Below are positions 30,694-47,980 of a stretch of DNA of 64,000 nucleotides, piece after piece. The translations under genes and the position numbers were made by a program. The notes beneath the pieces were generated by a model. That model searched no databases. It was not told the origin of the DNA and saw only the letters and a list, made by a program, of their open reading frames with translations. Every line of letters begins with the position of its first letter. Within the stretch, counting starts at the first letter, position 1. The stretch is from Thermodesulfobium sp. 4217-1 (GTDB lineage: Bacteria > Thermodesulfobiota > Thermodesulfobiia > Thermodesulfobiales > Thermodesulfobiaceae). The stretch is taken from NCBI RefSeq assembly GCF_039822205.1, contig NZ_JBAGBW010000003.1, forward strand, positions 1 to 64,000. Reading direction: 5' to 3'.

Positions 30694-31266
30694 TTGGAAA
30701 AATTAGATGTTATTAGAATAAATTTAAAAGCTGTAGTTATGGAAAAGATTCAAGATATACACGTTTATGCTTGGATTGATAATTTTTATGATATATTTAT
30801 CTCATGGGATGAGTTTTTTGAAATATTAAATAGATATGATAACAATGCTGGTATAGGTATGTCTGATTTTTCGAATGAAGAATTGAAGATTATTGAAGAA
30901 GAAGTTGTCAAAATGACTGTAGATTGTTTAAAATATAGAATTACTGAAGAAATCGAGAAGGAACTTGAGAAGGTTGAAAGATTTTGGATTATTGTTGATA
31001 AAGAAGGTCTTAAACTTCCAAGATTTATAGTTTACGATGATAGTGAAGGGAAAACTGACTCTTTTAACGTTTTTGATTGTTTAAGGGCTTATGGTTTAAT
31101 CCCAGAGGGTAGTGGTGAATGGGAAGGGGCTGCAAGAGCAATTTTGTTTTCGAAGGGGAATAAAAAAGATTGGGACTTAGATCTTTATGCTACTTATCTT
31201 GAAGCTGAGGATCAGGATTTAAATGAAGTCCAAAGTTGTTCTACAAAATATATGAATATAGTTTAA
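30694..31266 (+). CDS. Uncharacterised acidic protein, first gene of the signalling operon
   Basis: A 190-residue protein I do not recognise. It is acidic, has no signal peptide or membrane segment, and contains a Glu/Lys-rich helical stretch (about 70-95, EEIEKELEKVERF) followed by WIIVDKEGLKLPRFIVYDD and FDCLRAYGLIPEG. TTG 30694 is five bases after GAGGA. It lies 36 bases before the Cache-HAMP receptor, so it is likely co-expressed; a sensor partner or adaptor is conceivable, with no direct support. Confidence 0.7.
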   Translation: MEKLDVIRINLKAVVMEKIQDIHVYAWIDNFYDIFISWDEFFEILNRYDNNAGIGMSDFSNEELKIIEEEVVKMTVDCLKYRITEEIEKELEKVERFWIIVDKEGLKLPRFIVYDDSEGKTDSFNVFDCLRAYGLIPEGSGEWEGAARAILFSKGNKKDWDLDLYATYLEAEDQDLNEVQSCSTKYMNIV

Positions 31267-31302
31267 ATTTCATTTATTAGTTTATATAATTTAGGGGGTT
31301 AT

Positions 31303-33525
31303 ATGAGGATTTTTCGTATTTTCTTAAACGCTGCTCTTCGTAAAAAGATGGGCATAATGGTTCTTGTTAGTTTTTTTGTTTTTGGCCTGCTCTTATCGGG
31401 TGGAGGTTTGATTCAAATATATAACTTTAGTAATGAAATTTTGTTTAATGATATATCAAACGCATCTAAAGGTCTTAATTTCTTCCTTGATTCAAAAATT
31501 ACAGATTCAAGAAGAATTGCTTTGATACTTTCTAACGAGCACGATCTTGTTGCTGGCATAAAAAACAAAGATTTTGCCTCCCTATCTTCATTCATTGAAA
31601 AATTTTCTCAGCTTTATCCCGGATCATATGTGACCGTTACTGATTCTGATGGCAATGTACTTGCAAGAAGCAATGCGCCTACTGAGAAGGGCGATAACTT
31701 ATCTGATTTACCAGAGATTTCAAGTGCTTTAGGTGGTAAAGTTGAATCTGGCATCGCGAAGGGACATACTACTGGACTCTCAGTAAGATCTGGAGCGCCT
31801 GTTAGAGACGAAAAAGGCAAAATTATTGGGGCTATTTCAACAGGCTTTAAAATTGCTGGAACTAAAGATATTTCAAATCAAATCAGAAATAACCTTGGAG
31901 TAGAGGTAGCCTTTTTTGATGGTGATAAAATGGTTTCTACTTCTATTAAGAGTAACGAGCTTCCCTACTTTGATAAATTTTTTAACTCTTCTATTTATGG
32001 AGCGGTTCTAAAAGATGGTAAACCAGTTGATTATGGTACTCCTAGAAATATCTCAGAAATGTATAACTTTATAAAGGAAATATTATTTGGTAAGCCTTAT
32101 TTTGCATATTATTATCCTGTGAAGGATGCCAATGGAAAAATTCTTGGGATGTACTTTATTGCTAAAGATACAGCTTTTTATAATAATATGTTGAAGAGAT
32201 TTACCATAGTGCAGTTTGCATTAAACATAGCAGCTATTATAATCGGCATATTCTTATTGCTATTGTCTATGGAGTTTTTCTTTATGAGACCGATAGGACT
32301 GTTGGTTAAGGATATAAAAAGAGTAGCCTCTGGCGATCTTAGTCAACCTCTTAATCCTGTTTACAACGATGAATTAGGGGTTGTTGTAAGGGCAGTAGAA
32401 TCAATAAGATCAAACTTTATTAACGTTATTGGTAAGATAAATTATGCTATTAAAGACTTGGTAAACACTTCTGATGAGCTTATGTCGGTATCTTCTTTGG
32501 TAGCTACTTCATCGAGCGATGTATCTAAACTATCAGAAATTAATGCGAAGGGCGCTATGGACCTTTCAAACATATCGTCAAAATTAAATGAAGATAAAGA
32601 TATTCTTCTAAAGAGTATTCAAGGCATATCTAAAGGCGTTGAAGATCAGGCAATAACTGCTTCGAATATTGCTCAAAATATTAATAAGATAGCTAAAAGT
32701 ATAGAGATATTTAGCGATAAGCTTAAGGGTGTAACCGATATATTACAGGCAACTGACACCAAAATTAAAAATATGAATAAAGAAACAGATGAAAAGAAAC
32801 CCGTTGTTGATGAGGTTGTTAACGTAATGTCAAGTGTAACCGATATTTTTAGCAATATAAAAAATAACTCAGACAAAATAAAATCGGCTTTTGTTCCTAT
32901 ACAGACGCTTGCGAATCAAATACAACTTTGGACTTCTAACGCGATTATTGAAACTGCTAAATTAGGCGATCAAGGGAAGGGTTTTGGGGCTATTATTGAT
33001 GAAATAAGAAATTTATCTGAAAAACTTTTAAATACAACGAATGAAATCTTAAACAATCTTAATGAAGGTTTTACTGCATCAGATGGTTCTAAGATAAACT
33101 TTAACAAGCAAGATGAAAGTATTGATACTATTAAAAAATATTTTTCTTCGATTGAGGATTCGGCTAATAGTTTAGCAAAAAACGTTAATGAGCTTTCTGC
33201 AATGATTGAGAAGATTAAAGAGGATGCAACTGGGTTGCTATCTTCAAAAGATATTAAAAATATTGAAACAAGCTTGGCTAACTTAGCTGCTTTGGCTGAG
33301 GAAGACCTTTCAAATATTCACGATATCAATAGGGCATCCTTAGACGTCCAAAGAGCAATTGAAAGCGTTGCTGAAATATCAAAAGACGGAGTTTCATCAA
33401 CTAGGAATATTTCAGAGAGAGCCAATGAACAGTTAACTGAAGCTAATAAGATGGAAGAGGTATCAAATGTTATTAAAATAAAGTCAAATGAACTTGAAGA
33501 TGAGGTTAGAAAGTTTAAGATATAG
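31303..33525 (+). CDS. Cache-HAMP receptor with degenerate chemoreceptor-like signalling domain
   Basis: A 740-residue membrane receptor. It has membrane segment 1 (about 16-38), an extracytoplasmic Cache-like sensor (SYVTVTDSDGNVLARSNAP; IGAISTGFKIAG), segment 2 (about 300-325), HAMP (about 326-378) and a long coiled coil. Around 537-575 the tip region aligns with chemoreceptors (DQGKGFGAIIDEIRNLSEK), but the CheA/CheW contact segment is changed to NQIQLWTSNAIIETAK. No che genes are nearby. It may signal to the downstream vWA, PP2C and kinase genes rather than to CheA. Confidence 0.82.
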   Translation: MRIFRIFLNAALRKKMGIMVLVSFFVFGLLLSGGGLIQIYNFSNEILFNDISNASKGLNFFLDSKITDSRRIALILSNEHDLVAGIKNKDFASLSSFIEKFSQLYPGSYVTVTDSDGNVLARSNAPTEKGDNLSDLPEISSALGGKVESGIAKGHTTGLSVRSGAPVRDEKGKIIGAISTGFKIAGTKDISNQIRNNLGVEVAFFDGDKMVSTSIKSNELPYFDKFFNSSIYGAVLKDGKPVDYGTPRNISEMYNFIKEILFGKPYFAYYYPVKDANGKILGMYFIAKDTAFYNNMLKRFTIVQFALNIAAIIIGIFLLLLSMEFFFMRPIGLLVKDIKRVASGDLSQPLNPVYNDELGVVVRAVESIRSNFINVIGKINYAIKDLVNTSDELMSVSSLVATSSSDVSKLSEINAKGAMDLSNISSKLNEDKDILLKSIQGISKGVEDQAITASNIAQNINKIAKSIEIFSDKLKGVTDILQATDTKIKNMNKETDEKKPVVDEVVNVMSSVTDIFSNIKNNSDKIKSAFVPIQTLANQIQLWTSNAIIETAKLGDQGKGFGAIIDEIRNLSEKLLNTTNEILNNLNEGFTASDGSKINFNKQDESIDTIKKYFSSIEDSANSLAKNVNELSAMIEKIKEDATGLLSSKDIKNIETSLANLAALAEEDLSNIHDINRASLDVQRAIESVAEISKDGVSSTRNISERANEQLTEANKMEEVSNVIKIKSNELEDEVRKFKI

Positions 33526-33550
33526 AAAATGACTTTTTAAGGAGAATAAG

Positions 33551-34867
33551 ATGCTTAAAGTAAACTTAAAGACTCATAGAAAAAGGTTGTTAGCTGATAC
33601 TCCTGGGCAGAAACTTTTTGTTTTACTTGGCATTGAAGCAACAGGAGATTTTGAAGAACGTGAAAAGCTTTTCGTTTCTTTTGTCTTAGATACTTCTGGA
33701 TCGATGAGCGAAAAGGTAAATGATAAATCAAAAATTGAAATTGTTGTTGAATCTTTGAAAAAAATATTTGAATCTGATATTTTTAAAGATGATGATGAAA
33801 TAAGCATTGTTACTTTCGATGATGAAGTTAATACGGTTTTACCCTTCACTGTTGCGGCAGATAAGGAAAGTATAAATTTATCATTAGAAAAAATTAAAAC
33901 AGGAACAGTTGGAACCAATCTTGGTGCTGGTATGAAGCTTTCATTGGAGCTTCTTAAAGATAAGGTTGGCATAAAAAAGATGGTGGTTTTGACTGATGGA
34001 AACGCCTTCGATTTAGATGTTGTTGAGAAGGTTTTGGATGAATTAGTTTTTTCTAATATATCTGTACTTTCTGTTGGGGTTGGCGATGAATGGAATGAAG
34101 ACTTGTTGTGTAGGATTTCCGATAGGACATTAGGAAAACCACTACACCTTTGTGATAGTGAAGTTGGTCTGGATTATTCCAGTAGCATAAACATTAGCAA
34201 ATTGCCTTATGTTTTCTTGAATGAATTGGGCCATGCAAGCCAGGAAGTAATTACAAATCTTGAGCTGGTAATTTCTCTTAAGGAAGGATTTTCTCTTGAG
34301 AGAATCACAAAAATTTTCCCCGTTCAATACGAGATTATAACTGATACTCAACCCTATTTAATGGGCAATCTTGAATCTAAAAGAAAGAATGTATATCTTT
34401 TGGAGTTTGATGTTCCTTTGATACCTGTATCAAAGATTGATATGGCTCAGGTTGAATTGTATTATCAACTCCCGAAAGGCGACACAAAAGAAAAAGTTGG
34501 CCCACTCGAAGTTAATATTGAGTTTACAAAAGATCAATTGCTTGCCGTCCAAACCGATCAAGAGGTTATGGATTGGGTTCAGCAAAGAAATATTGAAAGA
34601 ATTGTAAACCAAGCAATTACTCATGCATATAACTCACCTGATGATTCAGAGAAAATCTTAGCTCTAGCAAGAAGTCTTACTATAAAATTAAAAAATGAGA
34701 ACTTAACTGCGATGTTAGACAGGGCAATTGAAGAGCTAAGAATAAAAAGATATATTGGTTCTGGCACTGCTAAAACGCTAAAAATTGGAATGAAAACGCA
34801 ATTATTAGATCATTCTAAGTCAGATTTGCCTTCTGATGACGACATCAGAAAGGCGACTGGTGAATAA
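33551..34867 (+). CDS. von Willebrand factor A domain protein
   Basis: A 438-residue cytoplasmic protein with a complete MIDAS metal site: DTSGSMS near residue 47, Thr in GTNLGAGM near 118 and Asp in VLTDGNAF near 147. The rest has beta-rich and C-terminal helical regions similar to Ca-activated chloride channel-like or TerY-like vWA proteins; it has no signal peptide. The setting between a receptor and PP2C/kinase genes suggests a metal-dependent scaffold or phosphorylation target. AAGGAGAA precedes ATG 33551. Confidence 0.85.
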   Translation: MLKVNLKTHRKRLLADTPGQKLFVLLGIEATGDFEEREKLFVSFVLDTSGSMSEKVNDKSKIEIVVESLKKIFESDIFKDDDEISIVTFDDEVNTVLPFTVAADKESINLSLEKIKTGTVGTNLGAGMKLSLELLKDKVGIKKMVVLTDGNAFDLDVVEKVLDELVFSNISVLSVGVGDEWNEDLLCRISDRTLGKPLHLCDSEVGLDYSSSINISKLPYVFLNELGHASQEVITNLELVISLKEGFSLERITKIFPVQYEIITDTQPYLMGNLESKRKNVYLLEFDVPLIPVSKIDMAQVELYYQLPKGDTKEKVGPLEVNIEFTKDQLLAVQTDQEVMDWVQQRNIERIVNQAITHAYNSPDDSEKILALARSLTIKLKNENLTAMLDRAIEELRIKRYIGSGTAKTLKIGMKTQLLDHSKSDLPSDDDIRKATGE

Positions 34868-34892
34868 TTTGATAATAATTTAGGTGGGGTAC

Positions 34893-36335
34893 ATGGACGA
34901 AAATATTGTAAAAAGATTAGATCTTGAAAAGATGTTTAATCTGTTCGAAGTAATTGAAGATTTTGGGCAGGGTTGGAGTAAGTGTAGATATAATGGCGAG
35001 TTTTTTATATGTTACAATGGCGAAAAATTTGAGGCTTATGAGAAGATACTAAATTCAAAGATCTTTCCTGAAATATTGAGTTATTTTGAAAATACTATTG
35101 TTTTCAAATCTTATGATGCAAAGAAGCTAAGCGTACCTTTAGATCCAGAACACTCATTACTTCTTATAAAAGATATCAGTGAAGCTTCAATATTGCTAAA
35201 AGATCAGGGATATATGTTTAACGAGATTAATATTGCTGATCTGGTTAAAACGGAAAATGGTTTCAAGTTTTCTAAAATTCCCAATATTATAAGTTTTTCT
35301 GATTTCAAGTTTCCCAATCAATTATTTGAAATAGAAGATTACACAATTAAGCTATTAGGCTCTCTTCTTTACGAGTTATTAAGTGGAATTTCAATTAAAA
35401 ATGGATTTGATATAAAGATTATCTCGCGCTACGATATTCCGGGTATACCACAATTTCTATCACTGGCACTTCCAGGCAGCAGGGGAAGAATTTCGCTTAA
35501 AGATGCTTTTAATATGCTTAGTCAAATTTGTTCTTCAATTGAGGCTCAACACTGTAAATATAGCATTGGATCTTCTTCTACTATTGGACTAAACGTTTCG
35601 AGAACGATTAATGAAGATTCTTTTGGTTATGCTCAAATGTATTTTTATAATCACTTTGGAAAGCACAATATCTTAAAAGCCTGTATCGCTGACGGTATGG
35701 GTGGCATGGAGGCAGGGGAAACTGCCAGTAAATCTGCTGTGGATGCATTTTTGACTGAAAGATTTGAACTTTTAGATGACGATGAACACATTGCAAATCA
35801 AACTATTGAGCTTGCATGGAAGGCAAATAAAGCTGTGTTTGACAGTTTAAATGGCAAAAACGGTGGTTGTACCTTTAGCGGCACTGTCATTTACAACGAT
35901 AGGCTTTATATTGCACATGTGGGAGATACAAGAATATATCTTTATAAAAACGATAATCTTGAGAGATTATCGAACGATCATTCTTTGGTAGAAACGCTAA
36001 TCTTAGGCGGAATTATGACAAGAGAAGAGGCATTGAATAGTCCAGATAGAAACAAGCTCTTAAGATCTATGGGATTTATAAAGGATAAACAAGAAAATTA
36101 TATAGAAGGATTGTTCAAGAAGTTTGAAAAACATTCTATTCAATTAGTTAAAGGGGATGTTGTTCTAATAGTAAGTGATGGAGTATGGGGAGAGATTCCT
36201 GACGATGAGTTGCTGGCTGTTATTAGATCTTTGTCGCACAATCCAGACGATCTTGTGGATGAGTTGATTTCAGTTGTTTTGAAAAGAGGAGCACCTGATA
36301 ATGCTACGGCAATTGCTATTTATAAAGAATTTTAA
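34893..36335 (+). CDS. PP2C-family protein phosphatase with N-terminal pseudokinase-like domain
   Basis: 480 residues. The C-terminal half (about 230-480) is a PP2C phosphatase with ADGMGGMEAGE near 265, HVGDTR near 342, VSDGVWGE near 427 and GAPDNATA near 467, so the metal-binding aspartates are kept. The N-terminal 220 residues follow the outline of a protein kinase (EDYTIKLLGSLLYELLSG resembles the alphaF region) but lack the HRD and DFG motifs. GTG 34884 is in frame; AGGTGG fits ATG 34893 better. Likely dephosphorylates targets of the next gene. Confidence 0.86.
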   Translation: MDENIVKRLDLEKMFNLFEVIEDFGQGWSKCRYNGEFFICYNGEKFEAYEKILNSKIFPEILSYFENTIVFKSYDAKKLSVPLDPEHSLLLIKDISEASILLKDQGYMFNEINIADLVKTENGFKFSKIPNIISFSDFKFPNQLFEIEDYTIKLLGSLLYELLSGISIKNGFDIKIISRYDIPGIPQFLSLALPGSRGRISLKDAFNMLSQICSSIEAQHCKYSIGSSSTIGLNVSRTINEDSFGYAQMYFYNHFGKHNILKACIADGMGGMEAGETASKSAVDAFLTERFELLDDDEHIANQTIELAWKANKAVFDSLNGKNGGCTFSGTVIYNDRLYIAHVGDTRIYLYKNDNLERLSNDHSLVETLILGGIMTREEALNSPDRNKLLRSMGFIKDKQENYIEGLFKKFEKHSIQLVKGDVVLIVSDGVWGEIPDDELLAVIRSLSHNPDDLVDELISVVLKRGAPDNATAIAIYKEF

Positions 36336-36350
36336 GAATAAGGAGAGAAT

Positions 36351-38099
36351 ATGATCTTTTGTAGAGTTTGTGGATATGGGCCTATTTCAGAGGAAGTAAA
36401 AGTTTGCCCAGTGTGTGGAACAGCAGTAGTTGATAAAGCTTTTTCTGGGACTAGAACTCTTTCAATAATGTCATTGGCTTCTGGTACAGTTCTTCAAAAT
36501 GGCAAATATCGAATTGAGGATGTAATCATACAGGGTGGATTTTCTTTTACTTATTCTGCTACTCAAACCATGCTTGATTCAAAAGTAGCTGTTAAAGAGC
36601 TCTTTGCGCTTGGCGCTACAAGGCAAGGTAGCGTGGTAATCTTTGGTGGCGACTCTTCTGAAAGCATTGGTGAATTTTTAAATGAGGGAAGAATTCTTGC
36701 CAGATTAAATCATCCAGGTATAGTAAAAGTTCTTGATTTTTTTGAAGAAAATAATACGGCTTATCTGATAATGGAATTTCTTGAGGGAGAGTCCTTATCG
36801 TTACTCATAAATAGAGCAGGAAAAGTATCAGAAGATGAAGCTCTAAGTTATATAAAACAGGTTGCTCAGGCTTTAAAGGTGGTCCATGATGCGGGACTAT
36901 TGCATCAGGATGTTAAGCCTGACAACTTGATATTAACAAAACAAGGAAGAATTGTGATTGTAGATTTTGGGTCAGCTAGACAATTTATAGCAGAAAAAAC
37001 TGGAAATTACGATAGAATTGTGACTCCTGGTTTTGCACCACTAGAGCAATATGGTCAGAGGGTGAGAAGAGGACCTTATACAGATGTATATTCGCTGTGT
37101 GCAAATTTTTATACTTTAATTAAGGGCTTTCCTCCAGCTCCAGCTCCAGATAGATTGCAAACTTTAAAAGAATTAGACTTAGCAGAAATAAGCCCAAAAA
37201 TTGCAAAAATTATTTCAAAGGGTCTTGAGGTAAATGTAAATAATAGAATTAAATCAATGGACGAATTTCTATCAATGATTGAAGAGGCCGAAGATCAAAG
37301 CTTCAAAGTGAACAAACCAGCTATAAAAGAAGATTCAGTACATCTTGATGAGATTTCTAATTTCAACAGTGAGAAAAGTACTTTAAGAAAAGATAAGATA
37401 TACGAGAAAATTGATCCTATCGATGTTGAAAATCTGGACATAGATCATGAGGACCCAAAATCAATTTTTGAATTAGGTTTAAAGTATTTACTTGGATTTG
37501 GAGTTGTAAGGGATTTTGACATGGCTTTTAAATATTTCAAAGAGGCATCTCAAAAAGGCAGTGCAGATGCAACATACCATCTTGGCCTCATGTCTCTTCA
37601 CGGCCAGGGCACATCTCAGGACGATAGCGCAGCTTTTAGATATTTCAAAGAGTCATCTGAAAATGGCAATCCAGATGCAATGTACAGAATCGGATGGATG
37701 TATGAGTATGGAAGAGGCGCATCTCAAGACGATAAAATGGCTTTTAAATATTTCAAAGAGGCATCTCAAAAAGGCAGTGCAGATGCAAAATACCATATTG
37801 GTCTCATGTCTCTTCACGGCCAGGGCACATCTCAAGACGATAAAATGGCTTTTAGGTCTTTCAAAGAGGCATCCGAAAATGGCAACCCAGATGCAATGTA
37901 CAGACTTGGTTGGATGTATGAGTATGGAAGAGGCACCTCTAAAGATGTAAAAATGGCAAAATATTGGTATGAGAAATCCAAAGACTTAGGGAATATTGAC
38001 TCGAAAAATAAGCTTGAGAATTTTTTGCCTGAATTTCATAACAAAAAAAATCAAGGCAATTTCTTTGGAAGACTTTTCAAAAGTTTGTTTGGAGGTTAA
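36351..38099 (+). CDS. Ser/Thr protein kinase with zinc ribbon and Sel1 repeats
   Basis: 582 residues. An N-terminal zinc ribbon (C4, C7, C19, C22) is followed by a Hanks-type kinase (about 50-310) with VAVKELF near 80, HQDVKPDNLIL near 185 (Gln in place of Arg of HRD), VDFGSAR near 204 and PGFAPLEQY. A linker and about five Sel1-like repeats (about 370-565) end the protein; these usually bind partner proteins. Two 216-base halves of the repeat region are nearly identical in DNA. Last gene of the operon, 15 bases after the PP2C gene. Confidence 0.9.
   Translation: MIFCRVCGYGPISEEVKVCPVCGTAVVDKAFSGTRTLSIMSLASGTVLQNGKYRIEDVIIQGGFSFTYSATQTMLDSKVAVKELFALGATRQGSVVIFGGDSSESIGEFLNEGRILARLNHPGIVKVLDFFEENNTAYLIMEFLEGESLSLLINRAGKVSEDEALSYIKQVAQALKVVHDAGLLHQDVKPDNLILTKQGRIVIVDFGSARQFIAEKTGNYDRIVTPGFAPLEQYGQRVRRGPYTDVYSLCANFYTLIKGFPPAPAPDRLQTLKELDLAEISPKIAKIISKGLEVNVNNRIKSMDEFLSMIEEAEDQSFKVNKPAIKEDSVHLDEISNFNSEKSTLRKDKIYEKIDPIDVENLDIDHEDPKSIFELGLKYLLGFGVVRDFDMAFKYFKEASQKGSADATYHLGLMSLHGQGTSQDDSAAFRYFKESSENGNPDAMYRIGWMYEYGRGASQDDKMAFKYFKEASQKGSADAKYHIGLMSLHGQGTSQDDKMAFRSFKEASENGNPDAMYRLGWMYEYGRGTSKDVKMAKYWYEKSKDLGNIDSKNKLENFLPEFHNKKNQGNFFGRLFKSLFGG
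37521..37952 (+). repeat. Tandem 216-base duplication within Sel1 repeats
   Basis: Bases 37521-37736 and 37737-37952 are nearly identical copies, each holding two Sel1 units of about 108 bases. The first begins ATGGCTTTTAAATATTTCAA, and the second begins the same way 216 bases later. The reading frame is kept. Confidence 0.88.
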
Positions 38100-38159: not shown

Positions 38160-38189
38160 TAACCGTTTTGAAAAATTAATATAGTTAAA

Positions 38190-38416
38190 AGCTGTGAACA
38201 GGAGTAGTAGAGAGCAAAACTTTCTTAGAGAGCCGAAGGTTGGTGCGATTCGGTAAAGGGCGCTTTTGAACTCGCCTGGGAGCTTTTCTGGTGAATCTTA
38301 GTAATCAGAAACGTTCGGCTGCGTTAATGCCTTGAGAGAACCGTCTTTTTTGATGGTTAATCGTGGTGGTACCGCGGAAATTCCCTCCGTCCTCGTGATG
38401 TGAGGGTTTTTTTTTA
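38190..38416 (+). promoter_or_regulatory. T-box leader RNA of ilvB, probably leucine-specific
   Basis: Stem I features include GGAGTAGTA (about 38201), AGAGAGCCGAAGGTTGGTGC and its pairing partner GATTCGG. The antiterminator core TGGTGGTACCGCGG lies at 38364-38377. A terminator follows, with CCCTC/CCTC pairing GAGGG at 38402-38406 and then nine T. CTC at 38271-38273 after TTGAA is the likely specifier codon (Leu). Uncharged tRNA would favour readthrough. This occupies the 341-base gap before ilvB. Confidence 0.9.
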
Positions 38417-43350: not shown

Positions 43351-44283
43351 TTGTCTCTTTTTAAAAAGAAAAAATTTTTTTGTGGGATAGAAATAGACGG
43401 CAACGTATTGAGATTTTCGCAGGTTGATAATCTCAAGTCTTCTTTTGTTTTGAAAAAATACCAAGATGTTTTGCTGCCTCAGCCTTATACTAAAGACTCG
43501 AATATCGAAAGTATAAAGTCTTTTTCTTCATTGCTCGAGCAGCAGTTTGGGGTATTTAAAAATGTTAATTTTGTTTTAGGGCTTCATGGCACGCAAATTA
43601 TTTTAAAAAACATCAGGCTCCCAATGCTTCCCGCAGATGAGGTCTCCCTTGTAGTAAAATCTGAGGCTGATAGATATTTGCCAATACCGCCAGAAGAGGC
43701 ATACATTGACAGTTGTTTTTTGAGGGATGTCCATATTGGAAATGACAATTTTGTTGATGCACTTTTGGTTGCAGTTCCAAGAAGAATTGTCGATCCGTTT
43801 ATAGACTCTTTTAATAGAGCCGGTTTGACTCTTAGCAAGATAGATCTTTCAATCTTAGCTCTTGCAAGGGCGATGGGTGAGCAAATAACTTCTGGAATTC
43901 AGATGGTTATGAAGATATTTTCTGAGGGAGTTAACATCTTGATCCTTGACGATGGTTATCCAGTATACCAGCGTTTTATTCTGATTTCATATGATAACCT
44001 TATAAAAAATGATACTGGTAGTCTGGAATTGCTCCTGTCCGAGATTGAAAGAACGATTAGTTTTTATCTTTCTGATAAAGTTAACAAGGATGTCAGTAAG
44101 TTAAGCTATGTCGGTAGAAGCGAAGCCGACAAGCCACTATTTAACTATATAAAAGAGAAGGTTAGCGTCCCGTTTGGTGAGGCAAGGATTGTTCCAAGCA
44201 AGGTTTTGAAGGGAAGCTTTGATGAAAATGCAGTAAAATACTCTGGTATTTCAGTAGGGTTGGGGATGAGAAATGAAGGATAA
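43351..44283 (+). CDS. pilM: Type IV pilus assembly protein PilM
   Basis: Actin-like cytoplasmic ATPase of the type IV pilus alignment complex. It begins SLFKKKKFFCGIEIDGNVLRF and keeps family segments such as VSLVVKSEADRYLPIPPEEA and the late YVGRSEADKPL. 310 residues. TTG start after GGTGGAGGA. First gene of pilMNOPQ; overlaps pilN by 11 bases. Confidence 0.88.
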   Translation: MSLFKKKKFFCGIEIDGNVLRFSQVDNLKSSFVLKKYQDVLLPQPYTKDSNIESIKSFSSLLEQQFGVFKNVNFVLGLHGTQIILKNIRLPMLPADEVSLVVKSEADRYLPIPPEEAYIDSCFLRDVHIGNDNFVDALLVAVPRRIVDPFIDSFNRAGLTLSKIDLSILALARAMGEQITSGIQMVMKIFSEGVNILILDDGYPVYQRFILISYDNLIKNDTGSLELLLSEIERTISFYLSDKVNKDVSKLSYVGRSEADKPLFNYIKEKVSVPFGEARIVPSKVLKGSFDENAVKYSGISVGLGMRNEG

Positions 44284-44839
44284 TGTTTATTTAGGATATA
44301 TAATAAATTTACTGCCAGAGGAATTTGTAGAAAAAGGTAGTGATTTTAATCAAAATCTCGTTTTTCTTATTCCTGTAGCTGTTTTTTTTGTTCTTTTAAT
44401 TTTAACAGGAGCAGCGTTTGCCTTAAATTTTTATATTTCATCTCAGATTACTAGCGTAAATAATCAGATTACAGTGCTTATGCCTGATGCGCTAAATTAC
44501 GACGTTCTATTGAAGAGAAAAAATGAATTGCAAGAAGCCAATAAAGTTTTGCAAGGTATTGATCAAAGATCTAAAAGAGATATTGGAGTCTTGGAGGAGC
44601 TTAGATCTTCAATACCTGCAGATACGTGGATTACATCATTAAAGATTGACGGTTTGCATTATACTCTGAATGGTTCTTCATTAAGTTCTACCTCTCCGCC
44701 TTACTTTTACTACTTGATATCGAAATCCAAAATTCTTTCCAACCCCAGGCTGGATGAAATTATAAGAGTTCCCGGTAAAGACAAAGAAAATTCGAATAAT
44801 GCCTTTAATTTCATTTTTGATTTTGAGGTTTCAAGATGA
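44273..44839 (+). CDS. pilN: Type IV pilus assembly protein PilN
   Basis: A 188-residue bitopic inner-membrane protein with a short cytoplasmic start containing INLLPEE, the PilM-binding signature, one membrane segment (about 28-52), a coiled coil and a ferredoxin-like end with DTWITSLKIDG. Overlaps pilM, and overlaps pilO by ATGA. Confidence 0.87.
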   Translation: MKDNVYLGYIINLLPEEFVEKGSDFNQNLVFLIPVAVFFVLLILTGAAFALNFYISSQITSVNNQITVLMPDALNYDVLLKRKNELQEANKVLQGIDQRSKRDIGVLEELRSSIPADTWITSLKIDGLHYTLNGSSLSSTSPPYFYYLISKSKILSNPRLDEIIRVPGKDKENSNNAFNFIFDFEVSR

Positions 44840-45561
44840 AAAACACCATATTAAACTACTTTAGAAATTTAACTTTCAGAGAGAAAAAGCTACTTTCTGC
44901 AATGCTTTCATTCTTGTTTATTGTGTTTTTTGGAGTCTTCTTTTTGTTTCCTCAGGTCCAACAATTTTTAGCCCAAAAAACAACTCTTGATGCTAAACAA
45001 TTGCAGTTAAACGAGTATAAGAACAAATCTCTTGCTCTGGCTGCATTAAGAAAAGATTTTAATCAAGCAAACACTGAAGTTGAGAAAATAAGATCGAGAT
45101 TTATAGTTCAAAACGATATGGCCAAGATGTTTGTGGATTTGTCGAATTTGATTGAGGCATCTGGCGGAACCCTTGTGGAATTTAAGCCAGAAGGGATATC
45201 TCAAGCTCCTATCGCTCAGCAAAAGCCTCAACAGCAGTCTAACAGCGGTGCGACTTTTAGCAAAACCGTATTGCAACCAGCAAATCAGCAGAATCAATCT
45301 AACAACAAAGTTGCCCAGCCTTCCTCAGGCAATCCTTATGCAGATGCTGAGAGAATACTTAATATTAGGACAATAAAGTTTGCGCTTAAGGTAGACTTTC
45401 ACGGATACGATGCGATGAAGAAATTTATGGAAAGCTTAAGCACTTTCCCAAAGATAATTACTTTGGGTGGATTTCAAATAGTTGGATATTCTGAAAAAGA
45501 AAAAACTTTGAGACTTGATATGACTTTAGACGGGTTTTACGATCTGTCAAGGTCCAAATAG
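44836..45561 (+). CDS. pilO: Type IV pilus assembly protein PilO
   Basis: A 241-residue inner-membrane protein with one N-terminal segment (about 18-38), a coiled coil and a C-terminal ferredoxin-like domain. A Gln/Ser/Asn-rich linker (about 125-165) interrupts the periplasmic part, longer than in model PilO proteins. Coupled to pilN by ATGA; expected to pair with PilN. Confidence 0.82.
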   Translation: MKNTILNYFRNLTFREKKLLSAMLSFLFIVFFGVFFLFPQVQQFLAQKTTLDAKQLQLNEYKNKSLALAALRKDFNQANTEVEKIRSRFIVQNDMAKMFVDLSNLIEASGGTLVEFKPEGISQAPIAQQKPQQQSNSGATFSKTVLQPANQQNQSNNKVAQPSSGNPYADAERILNIRTIKFALKVDFHGYDAMKKFMESLSTFPKIITLGGFQIVGYSEKEKTLRLDMTLDGFYDLSRSK

Positions 45562-45573
45562 GGAGAAATAAAT

Positions 45574-46089
45574 ATGGATAAGCAAAAGAAAATGAAAATT
45601 TTACTAGGTGTTCTAATCATAATCCTTTTGTTAGTAGCTGGCATTTACGTTTATCCTCAATTATTTCAATCAAATGTCAATAAACCTCAAGTTGTTCAAA
45701 CCCCTAAGCCTTCTGTGACCAATAAGGAGGCTAATGTGTCAAATAGTATTATCAACCCAGAAACTCTTGAAAAGCCAAAAGTCCAAATAGGCAGGTCTGA
45801 TCCATTTATCCCACTTATTGGTTCCGAGGGGAACTCCTCAAACGCGCAAGGTTCATCAGGTTCAAATACTAATTTCCCTATGATTAAAATGAATCCATTT
45901 CCAACGAGTTTAAGATTGGTGGGGATTATGAGAGTTAACGATAAAATGACAGCCATTATAGAAAATGGACAACAAACATATACAGTTAGAAGTGGCGATA
46001 TTATACTGGGCAACATAAGGGTTGTAGATGTTTACCTAAACAGTGTAGTGCTAACTTCTTCGGGGCAAACAAAAACCTATGAATTATAA
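45574..46089 (+). CDS. pilP: PilP-like pilus assembly protein
   Basis: A 171-residue protein with an N-terminal membrane segment (about 8-26), a Pro/Asn/Ser linker with SDPFIP, and a small beta domain with LRLVGIMRVNDKMTAIIENG and YTVRSGDIILGNIRVVDV. This layout fits PilP, which links PilNO to the secretin; the membrane anchor is an uncleaved segment with no lipobox Cys. AGGGAGA precedes ATG 45574. It overlaps the frame of pilQ only beyond the chosen pilQ start. Confidence 0.8.
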   Translation: MDKQKKMKILLGVLIIILLLVAGIYVYPQLFQSNVNKPQVVQTPKPSVTNKEANVSNSIINPETLEKPKVQIGRSDPFIPLIGSEGNSSNAQGSSGSNTNFPMIKMNPFPTSLRLVGIMRVNDKMTAIIENGQQTYTVRSGDIILGNIRVVDVYLNSVVLTSSGQTKTYEL

Positions 46090-46108
46090 AATATGTGAGG
46101 TGAATTTT

Positions 46109-47980
46109 ATGAAATGGATCTTAAGATCTTGTTTATTTTTATCTTTTTTATTTTTTGCAACCATATCGTATGCCGCTGATAAGACTGCGCTTGTTAACAT
46201 AGGTACAAACAACCAAAGTACATACGATGAACTGACGCTCACCTTTTCTGGTCCCATAGATCTTAACAGTGTCCTCCAGGAAAGGCTTAATTATCCTGAT
46301 TCCATAAAATTCACATTTAAAAATACTTCGCTTTCCCTAAAACCAGGACAGAAAATTTTTGCCGATCTATCAAAAATTGATTATCTTTCTTATTATGTTG
46401 TTCCAGAGGGCGTAGAGCTTTATGCTTATCTTAGAGATCCTGACGTCAGCGTAAGCATCCAAAAGACGGCAGATAATGTTTTGGTCTTAAAATTCCAGCC
46501 AAAAGAAGCTGCTAAATCTGCAACAAATGAAAGTGCTCAGAATACAGTTTCTAATCAAAATAATTCAAGTTCTGGAAATATAAACAATTTAGATTCTGGC
46601 TTATACCCAAAGGGTTATAACCCTTCAAGTCTTAATTCGAATATTGATAATACGCAGCAGGTTCAGGCTCAATCAGATAATTCTCCTATGATATCGTACA
46701 TGGCATTTAAGGGAGCTGATATAAGGGATGTTTTGGCTACTCTTGCGAGGTTAGGCGGATATAATCTGGTAGCATCTGATTCTGTTAAGGGATCCGTTAC
46801 CGTAGATCTTAAAGATATAAGCGTTGATGATGCAATTAAACTTGTTACGAAGATTAACAATTTTTCAATGCAAAAGGTTGGGAATGTTCTTGTGATTGGT
46901 AACAATAAAGATCTGAGTAACTTTGGTGTGATCAGGGTATATAAGTTATATAATGTCGGGAATAAAACTGTTATAGAGACTTCTACTTCTGCAACTTCTG
47001 GCGGAGGCAGCGGTGGAGGAGCCTCTGGGTTAACTATAAACAAGGTAACCACAATGAGACAGGGAGCTGATGTGGCAAAGCTGATAGCAGAGGGTATTGG
47101 CGCATCATTCTCTTCAACAAAGATTGCATCATCTTCTGGCGGGGGCGAGTCAGCATCCACATCTAACTCTACTGACAGCTCGGGTAAGGTACTCTATGAT
47201 GATAGAACCAATACCATTACTGTAATAGCACCAGAAGATAAACAAAAAATTGCAGAAAATTTGCTCCAAAATCTTGATACACCGCTTAAACAAATTGAAG
47301 TTCAGGTAATGGTTATTGAGCTTGATAACCAAGGGATTAAAGAGATTGGCATAAATTGGCCAAATAACGTTCAGCTCTCAGGAACTGCTACTGCGACAAG
47401 GACTTATGGAACGTCTAAGAGCAAATCTAGTGTTTATACGGGTACTATTTCTAATATCACTGCATCTCTTTATGCTCAGCTAAATAATAGCAATGGGAAA
47501 ATACTTTCTGATCCAAGAATTCTTGCATTAGACGGTCAGGATTCTTATGTATTTGCAGGTGATAAATTGTATATACCTCAGGTATCTTCTGCTACTGGCG
47601 GAAACGTGACCTACACTACAAATGAATATGACGTAGGTGTTTTGCTAAAAATTACTCCCTTTGTAGGCGAAAATGGTGAGATAACGATTCATGTTACGCC
47701 TTCTGTTTCTGCGTTTAATGGTGATATTTCTCAACTTCAGATCAATCAACCATTTACTACAACCATTAGGGAGGCTGATGTAACAGCAAGAGTAAAGGAT
47801 GGACAGACTTTCTATATCGGTGGTCTTATAAGCGATGAAGATAGAAAACAAACTATTTCTGTGCCAGGATTGGGCAATATGCCACTACTTGGACCTATGT
47901 TTAGATATGATTATCGTCTAAAGAGCAAGACAGAAGTAATATTTTTACTTACACCTCATGTCGTAAAAAGTAGCTTGTGA
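46109..47980 (+). CDS. pilQ: Type IV pilus secretin PilQ
   Basis: Outer-membrane secretin for the pilus. 623 residues. Signal peptide MKWILRSCLFLSFLFFATIS ending near YAA, AMIN-like and STN domains (ISYMAFKGADIRDVLATLAR), a secretin N domain with an inserted Gly/Ser-rich loop (about 300-370), and the secretin pore with VPGLGNMPLLGPMFRYD and the end TEVIFLLTPHVV. ATG 46109 follows TGAGGTGA; an in-frame ATG 46079 would spoil the signal peptide. Its presence implies a diderm envelope. Confidence 0.92.
   Translation: MKWILRSCLFLSFLFFATISYAADKTALVNIGTNNQSTYDELTLTFSGPIDLNSVLQERLNYPDSIKFTFKNTSLSLKPGQKIFADLSKIDYLSYYVVPEGVELYAYLRDPDVSVSIQKTADNVLVLKFQPKEAAKSATNESAQNTVSNQNNSSSGNINNLDSGLYPKGYNPSSLNSNIDNTQQVQAQSDNSPMISYMAFKGADIRDVLATLARLGGYNLVASDSVKGSVTVDLKDISVDDAIKLVTKINNFSMQKVGNVLVIGNNKDLSNFGVIRVYKLYNVGNKTVIETSTSATSGGGSGGGASGLTINKVTTMRQGADVAKLIAEGIGASFSSTKIASSSGGGESASTSNSTDSSGKVLYDDRTNTITVIAPEDKQKIAENLLQNLDTPLKQIEVQVMVIELDNQGIKEIGINWPNNVQLSGTATATRTYGTSKSKSSVYTGTISNITASLYAQLNNSNGKILSDPRILALDGQDSYVFAGDKLYIPQVSSATGGNVTYTTNEYDVGVLLKITPFVGENGEITIHVTPSVSAFNGDISQLQINQPFTTTIREADVTARVKDGQTFYIGGLISDEDRKQTISVPGLGNMPLLGPMFRYDYRLKSKTEVIFLLTPHVVKSSL

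Follow-up and report, generated by a model that had tools for sequence, protein, structure and literature searches.

Five adjacent genes in Thermodesulfobium sp. 4217-1 raise the question of whether a membrane receptor of the chemoreceptor type can provide the input to a Ser/Thr kinase, its phosphatase, and a vWA protein, and whether such a system is new. The genes lie in a 64,000-nucleotide window (the whole stretch of DNA analyzed here) of a 112-kb contig within a 2.0-Mb genome. All five open reading frames (ORFs) are intact and on the plus strand, as are the features within them given below, with intergenic gaps of 36, 25, 16, and 15 bases. Gene A (30694 to 31266) encodes an acidic, soluble protein of 190 amino acids (aa); B (31303 to 33525), a 740-aa Cache-HAMP receptor with a degenerate MCP signaling domain; C (33551 to 34867), a 438-aa, ArnB-like vWA protein with an extra C-terminal region; D (34884 to 36335), a 483-aa pseudokinase-PP2C protein; and E (36351 to 38099), a 582-aa soluble zinc-ribbon Ser/Thr kinase with Sel1 repeats. 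The domains named for this tightly spaced set in an initial annotation, made from the sequence alone, were recovered by profile searches.

Conservation and transcription of the locus

The order A-B-C-D-E is common to all four genomes of the genus sample, comprising the window genome and three further species, so that the check set beforehand, conservation of gene order in close relatives, came out positive. Two of the species (G001 and G003) retain the longer order aldo/keto reductase-A-B-C-D-E-ilvB-ilvN, with 70 to 81% protein identity for A to E; in the third (G002), the set is divided between two contigs that overlap at their ends within B. The kinase/phosphatase pair proposed in the annotation, represented by the Pkinase domain of E and the PP2C domain of D, is part of this conserved set. 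Relative to the closest species, dN/dS was 0.03 for C, 0.04 for D, 0.14 for E (first 420 codons), and 0.22 for A (few changes). Based on the order in 4/4 genomes and values of 0.03 to 0.22 between the two closest species, we conclude that the gene set is not a chance assembly. As the four species represent a single lineage with one origin, the conserved order documents maintenance and is not independent evidence of function. The other sampled genomes have only the taxonomic domain in common with the genus, which is thus alone in its phylum in that sample, and a search of the genome contigs for related loci returned one 97% copy and one unrelated PP2C and nothing else.

The closely spaced genes A to E are predicted to form one operon and to be cotranscribed. 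Downstream of E, a T-box leader (38185 to 38397; Rfam RF00230; E, 1.2e-34) that ends at a terminator-like site precedes ilvB, and the ilv genes are therefore under separate control. Promoter-like matches were not in excess of those in shuffled sequence (37 versus 32.3; standard deviation, 6.0), so we claim no promoter.

Protein A had no family match in Pfam, other domain models, or PADLOC models; profiles of CheW, FHA, kinases, and neighboring ORFs gave no match either, and no relatives were found outside the genus among 382 sampled genomes. Its C-terminal segment, DLDLYATYLEAEDQxLNEVQSCSTKYM, is nearly invariant across the species of the genus. An AlphaFold model from the single sequence was unusable (pLDDT, 36).

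Receptor B and its chemoreceptor relatives

Protein B has the architecture of a chemoreceptor. Two hydropathy peaks, corresponding to transmembrane (TM) helices (31357 to 31413 and 32206 to 32262), flank an extracytoplasmic Cache sensor (31486 to 32199; dCache_3 residues 62 to 293) that matched dCache_3 (4.9e-14), sCache_3_2 (6.8e-15), and also sCache_3_3. The sensor shows a resemblance to CitA, which makes organic acids the first candidate ligands. A HAMP domain was located at 32284 to 32406 (residues 328 to 368; 1.7e-6), and the protein matched MCPsignal at 3.6e-14.

In chemoreceptors, the tip of the signaling hairpin binds CheA and CheW, and methylation sites serve adaptation. Comparison with paralogue tips identified a degenerate hairpin tip in B (PIQTLANQIQLWTSNAIIETAKLGDQGKGFGAIIDEIRNLSEK; 32896 to 33024). 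It keeps 16 of the 33 residues of a canonical motif that is identical in all 16 loci of the main paralogue families, confirming the altered tip that had been read from the sequence initially. B retains the GKGF turn as well as Asn and Glu from NxxxE, and the altered tip is itself conserved across the species of the genus. Consensus methylation sites number zero in the four B orthologues, versus two to four in other full-length MCPs. Each genus genome encodes CheA/CheW and has 7 to 11 MCPsignal matches; because the ordinary chemotaxis proteins and MCPs persist in the same genomes, the loss of features for CheA coupling is confined to B.

The closest relatives of B in the genus are full-length chemoreceptors (L057, L065, L070, and L072), which share 37% identity with it over 741 residues and 41% in the sensor. 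A maximum-likelihood tree built from 17 receptors places B and its orthologues as sister to these four with support of 96/99, on a stem branch of 1.32 changes per site versus 0.24 for the sister group; long-branch warnings concerned groups other than B. Clustering with ordinary chemoreceptors, which the initial annotation had named as a possible objection, is thus found by descent, and the Cache/HAMP/MCPsignal architecture is shared, but the conserved tip and the methylation sites of those MCPs are lost in B. The dN/dS of the C-terminal half is 0.075 and that of the changed tip 0.065 (few sites), and the ORF is open in all four species, although split over the two contigs in G002. B is under purifying selection.

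The vWA protein, phosphatase, and kinase and their relatives in other phyla

Protein C matched the VWA domain at 1.7e-17. In an alignment of cassette homologues, its MIDAS motif, DTSGS (33689 to 33703), is intact together with T122 and D149, as initially described: D47 to M52 are conserved in all 23 rows with a letter there, and T122 and D149 in 24/24. The same 24 homologues share a conserved C-terminal tail (ELRIKRYIGSGTAKTLKIGMKTQL; 34733 to 34804) with the pattern KT(L/V)xxG, in which K408, T409, and G413 are invariant. At position 418, the four sequences of the genus have Leu, and all 20 of the other homologues have Thr.

A profile built from seven C homologues found its best PDB match in 8S05 (8.4e-19), the complex of archaeal ArnA and ArnB (PMC12852372). 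Its top-scoring stretch is confined to the vWA domain. The tail motifs of ArnB are present in the matched chain, and a further, weak stretch (5.1 bits) pairs ArnB T354, T359, and T363 without gaps with positions 409, 414, and 418 of C (ArnB numbers follow the paper and are two less than in the 8S05 chain). The tail threonines of ArnB are phosphorylated and bind the FHA domain of ArnA (PMC6509490, PMC12852372); phosphorylation begins at T353, T363, and T375, and early FHA binding is weaker with the exchanges T353A/T354A or T359A/T363A (PMC12852372). Based on the invariance of the tail Thr across phyla and the likeness to ArnB, C is the predicted target of the kinase/phosphatase pair, a role that the initial annotation had offered to either the vWA protein or protein A.

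The N-terminal domain of D (34884 to 35579; first ∼230 residues) is kinase-like. Its alignment with the C-lobe of cassette kinases scored an hhalign E value of 3.3e-4, against 0.03 to 0.9 for unrelated and reversed controls, and the D homologue in locus L134 matches Pkinase at 5.1e-5, which supports the kinase-like N terminus noted at the outset. We read this domain as a pseudokinase because it is without HRD and DFG. The PP2C domain (35598 to 36320; residues 239 to 479) matched PP2C at 5e-15, above the Pfam cutoff, with intact acidic motifs; the match to the Stp1/IreP-type PP2C model that delimits it was 2.7e-43, below that model's curated cutoff. D was the single match in its own genome and hence the only PP2C found, in a search whose scope excluded SpoIIE-type phosphatases. 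An AlphaFold model of D from two sequences was unusable (pLDDT, 36).

Protein E combines a kinase domain (36498 to 37253; Pkinase, 3.6e-38), which keeps the catalytic Lys, Glu, HQD (rather than HRD), and DFG, with Sel1 repeats (37458 to 37994; 2.5e-42, five stretches). The zinc ribbon reached only 0.05 in Pfam, with two CxxC motifs, at residues 4 and 19. Each of the four genus genomes yielded a single Hanks kinase, E. No FHA protein was matched in these genomes, and control genomes gave matches.

Full-length C homologues were found in two other phyla: in 14 of 30 genomes of the phylum of G014 and in 12 of 194 genomes (one of them weak) of the phylum of G050, judged by gene content and genome size to be cyanobacteria. 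Three overlapping samplings of ∼385 genomes each added only weaker vWA relatives in G063, G204, and G334; we rejected those of G063 and G204 as cassette members, since they belong to the same broad family and have no cassette around them. Most inspected loci in both phyla have the order vWA, zinc-ribbon FHA, PP2C, zinc-ribbon kinase. One of two cassettes on contig 70 of G397 has no FHA gene, and the neighborhood scan found FHA or PP2C absent or fragmentary in L136, L142, L144, and L147 and the vWA gene alone in L137. No B-like ORF was found in the inspected cassette loci of the other phyla.

These cassettes and the genus locus have in common the order vWA, PP2C, zinc-ribbon kinase, a kinase-like PP2C N terminus, and the KT(L/V)xxG vWA tail, with 33 to 37% identity between the vWA proteins. 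They differ in that an FHA gene lies between the vWA and PP2C genes in the cassettes, whereas the 16-base gap between C and D in the genus holds none, and in that the genus adds receptor B and protein A. The kinase C terminus differs as well: Sel1 repeats in the genus, tetratricopeptide repeats (TPRs) in the one cyanobacterial kinase scanned, and a TM helix plus a CxxCH cytochrome c-like domain in 9/9 complete genes of the G014 phylum (L131 to L136, L138, L139, and L052). Two of three scanned G014-phylum kinases matched Cytochrome_CBB3 (5.7e-5 and 1.1e-4), below the Pfam cutoff; the cyanobacterial kinases are soluble. The sensory part thus varies by lineage around a constant core, which fits B as the input in the genus.

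We also made several side observations on these loci. The C-terminal domain of the G014-phylum kinases has CFYCH, a possible sign of a heme-sensing Hanks kinase. A secreted-looking protein of 173 to 185 aa with no family lies 3′ of the kinase gene in several of L052 and L131 to L137. In L142, L143, L144, and L051, a protein of 127 to 130 aa starting with MVxYTL (MVLYTL in L051) precedes the vWA gene; the one scanned had no Pfam match.

TerY-linked triads, cited in the initial annotation as known vWA/PP2C/kinase sets, would join the same three domain types as C, D, and E in linked genes. C matched general VWA families, with a TerF-like vWA match of only 7.7e-4, and no ter genes were among the ten neighboring proteins scanned. 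Anti-phage defense was considered and rejected: among PADLOC models, only the generic kinase domain gave strong matches (PD-T4-6 and Mad6), A and B had no match, C and D had weak matches, and no complete defense gene set was present. Actinobacteria are reported to carry linked genes for a zinc-ribbon kinase, a PP2C, and a standalone vWA protein, the same three domain types as C-D-E (PMC7159879); the passages describing this triad assign it to a GTPase-centered conflict system and mention no Cache/MCP receptor. The archaeal Arn module of Sulfolobus comprises the zinc-finger FHA protein ArnA, the vWA protein ArnB, the kinases ArnC and ArnD, and PP2A (PMC6509490, PMC12852372, PMC7472852). It resembles the genus system in its vWA protein with a Thr-bearing C-terminal tail, Ser/Thr kinase, and phosphatase, and its zinc-finger FHA partner is matched in the bacterial relatives but not in the genus. 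The Arn module is archaeal and uses PP2A, whereas the genus system is bacterial, with PP2C, clustered genes, a membrane receptor, and no FHA.

The literature searched gave no name for the vWA-FHA-PP2C-kinase cassette and contained neither a TerY or chemoreceptor combination with PP2C and vWA nor one of FHA, vWA, PP2C, and type IV pili, absences that are weak evidence. Phospho-switch cassettes of the C-D-E kind are already known. Because the core recurs in two other phyla, the suggestion that the whole system is new is not supported, and what had been called a possible new system is reduced to a variant. As far as these searches go, what is new here is the combination of an absent FHA arm, a decoupled chemoreceptor, and a protein specific to the genus.

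A predicted phospho-switch and competing readings

We propose that A to E encode an ArnB-like Ser/Thr phospho-switch from membrane to cytoplasm that takes its input from the repurposed chemoreceptor B, a reading to which we give a probability of roughly 50%. By analogy with archaeal ArnB and its kinase and phosphatase, E would phosphorylate threonines in the tail of C and D would remove the phosphate, with the pseudokinase domain of D serving in docking or regulation. In other lineages, the reader of the phosphorylated tail would be the zinc-ribbon FHA protein whose gene separates C from D; in the genus, where this reader is absent and kinase E is without a sensor of its own, input would come from B. 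The Cache domain would still face outside, and the signaling rod, no longer fitting CheA/CheW, may act on a complex of D, E, and C, perhaps via A. Gene order and the loss of CheA-coupling features point to this coupling of B to the switch with about even odds. The same balance holds for the idea that a duplicated chemoreceptor, freed from CheA/CheW and methylation, became the membrane sensor of the kinase/PP2C/vWA switch. An adaptor role for A, linking B to the switch, is a guess prompted by where its gene lies.

The switch may have a type IV pilus-like machine as its output; this is the weakest step of the proposal. A T2SSE/MshEN assembly ATPase gene flanks the vWA gene in eight loci of the G014 phylum (L052 and L131 to L137), and L138 has prepilin-like ORFs 3′ of the cassette. 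The window itself encodes PilM, PilN, PilO, a T2SSC-like protein, and a secretin at 43351 to 47980, 5.2 kb downstream of the operon, and G001 and G003 have PilM in the corresponding position. Counting against a pilus output, the T-box-controlled ilv/leu operon lies in between.

B might instead be a working, divergent chemoreceptor in mixed CheA/CheW arrays that sits beside an independent cassette by chance. Its sister relationship to an ordinary chemoreceptor, with 37% identity over 741 residues, the presence of CheA and CheW in the genomes, and the NxxxE and GKGF residues kept in the tip all agree with such a role. We nevertheless consider it unlikely, given a tip with 16 of 33 residues where every main-family paralogue locus has 33 of 33, the complete lack of consensus methylation sites, the long stem branch (1.32 versus 0.24), and the shared strand and close spacing with its neighbors in 4/4 genomes. 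Far less probable still is that B is a decaying chemoreceptor, a pseudogene in the making, and that function resides in C-D-E alone. Lost signaling features and the receptor-less C-D-E of two other phyla would suit decay, but the ORF is open in all four species, the changed tip is kept between them, and the dN/dS values of 0.075 and 0.065 (the latter from few sites) lead us to reject a pseudogene and largely refute this explanation.

A further alternative concerns C, which could be a substrate-recruiting adaptor or chaperone, with other proteins as the targets of the kinase and phosphatase and the tail Thr kept for structure. Other substrates are likely because E is the sole Hanks kinase found per genome, the intact MIDAS suggests ligand binding, and the genus has neither an FHA reader nor Thr at 418. 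The change of Thr418 to Leu in the FHA-less genus is one evolutionary event and only suggestive of a link to the FHA loss. Against an adaptor role stand T409, invariant even without FHA, and the adjacency of vWA, phosphatase, and kinase genes in three phyla, so that we regard this alternative as doubtful and retain C as the predicted target in the phospho-switch.

If B does control the kinase and phosphatase, MCP-type rods would be rewirable from histidine kinases to eukaryote-like Ser/Thr kinases, and two signaling worlds usually held separate would be joined. The genus, in which a single Hanks kinase, a single PP2C, and no FHA protein were found, would offer a minimal setting for the role and input of a bacterial Hanks kinase. 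In the core cassette, the archaeal ArnA/ArnB switch has a bacterial counterpart that carries a conserved candidate phospho-site.
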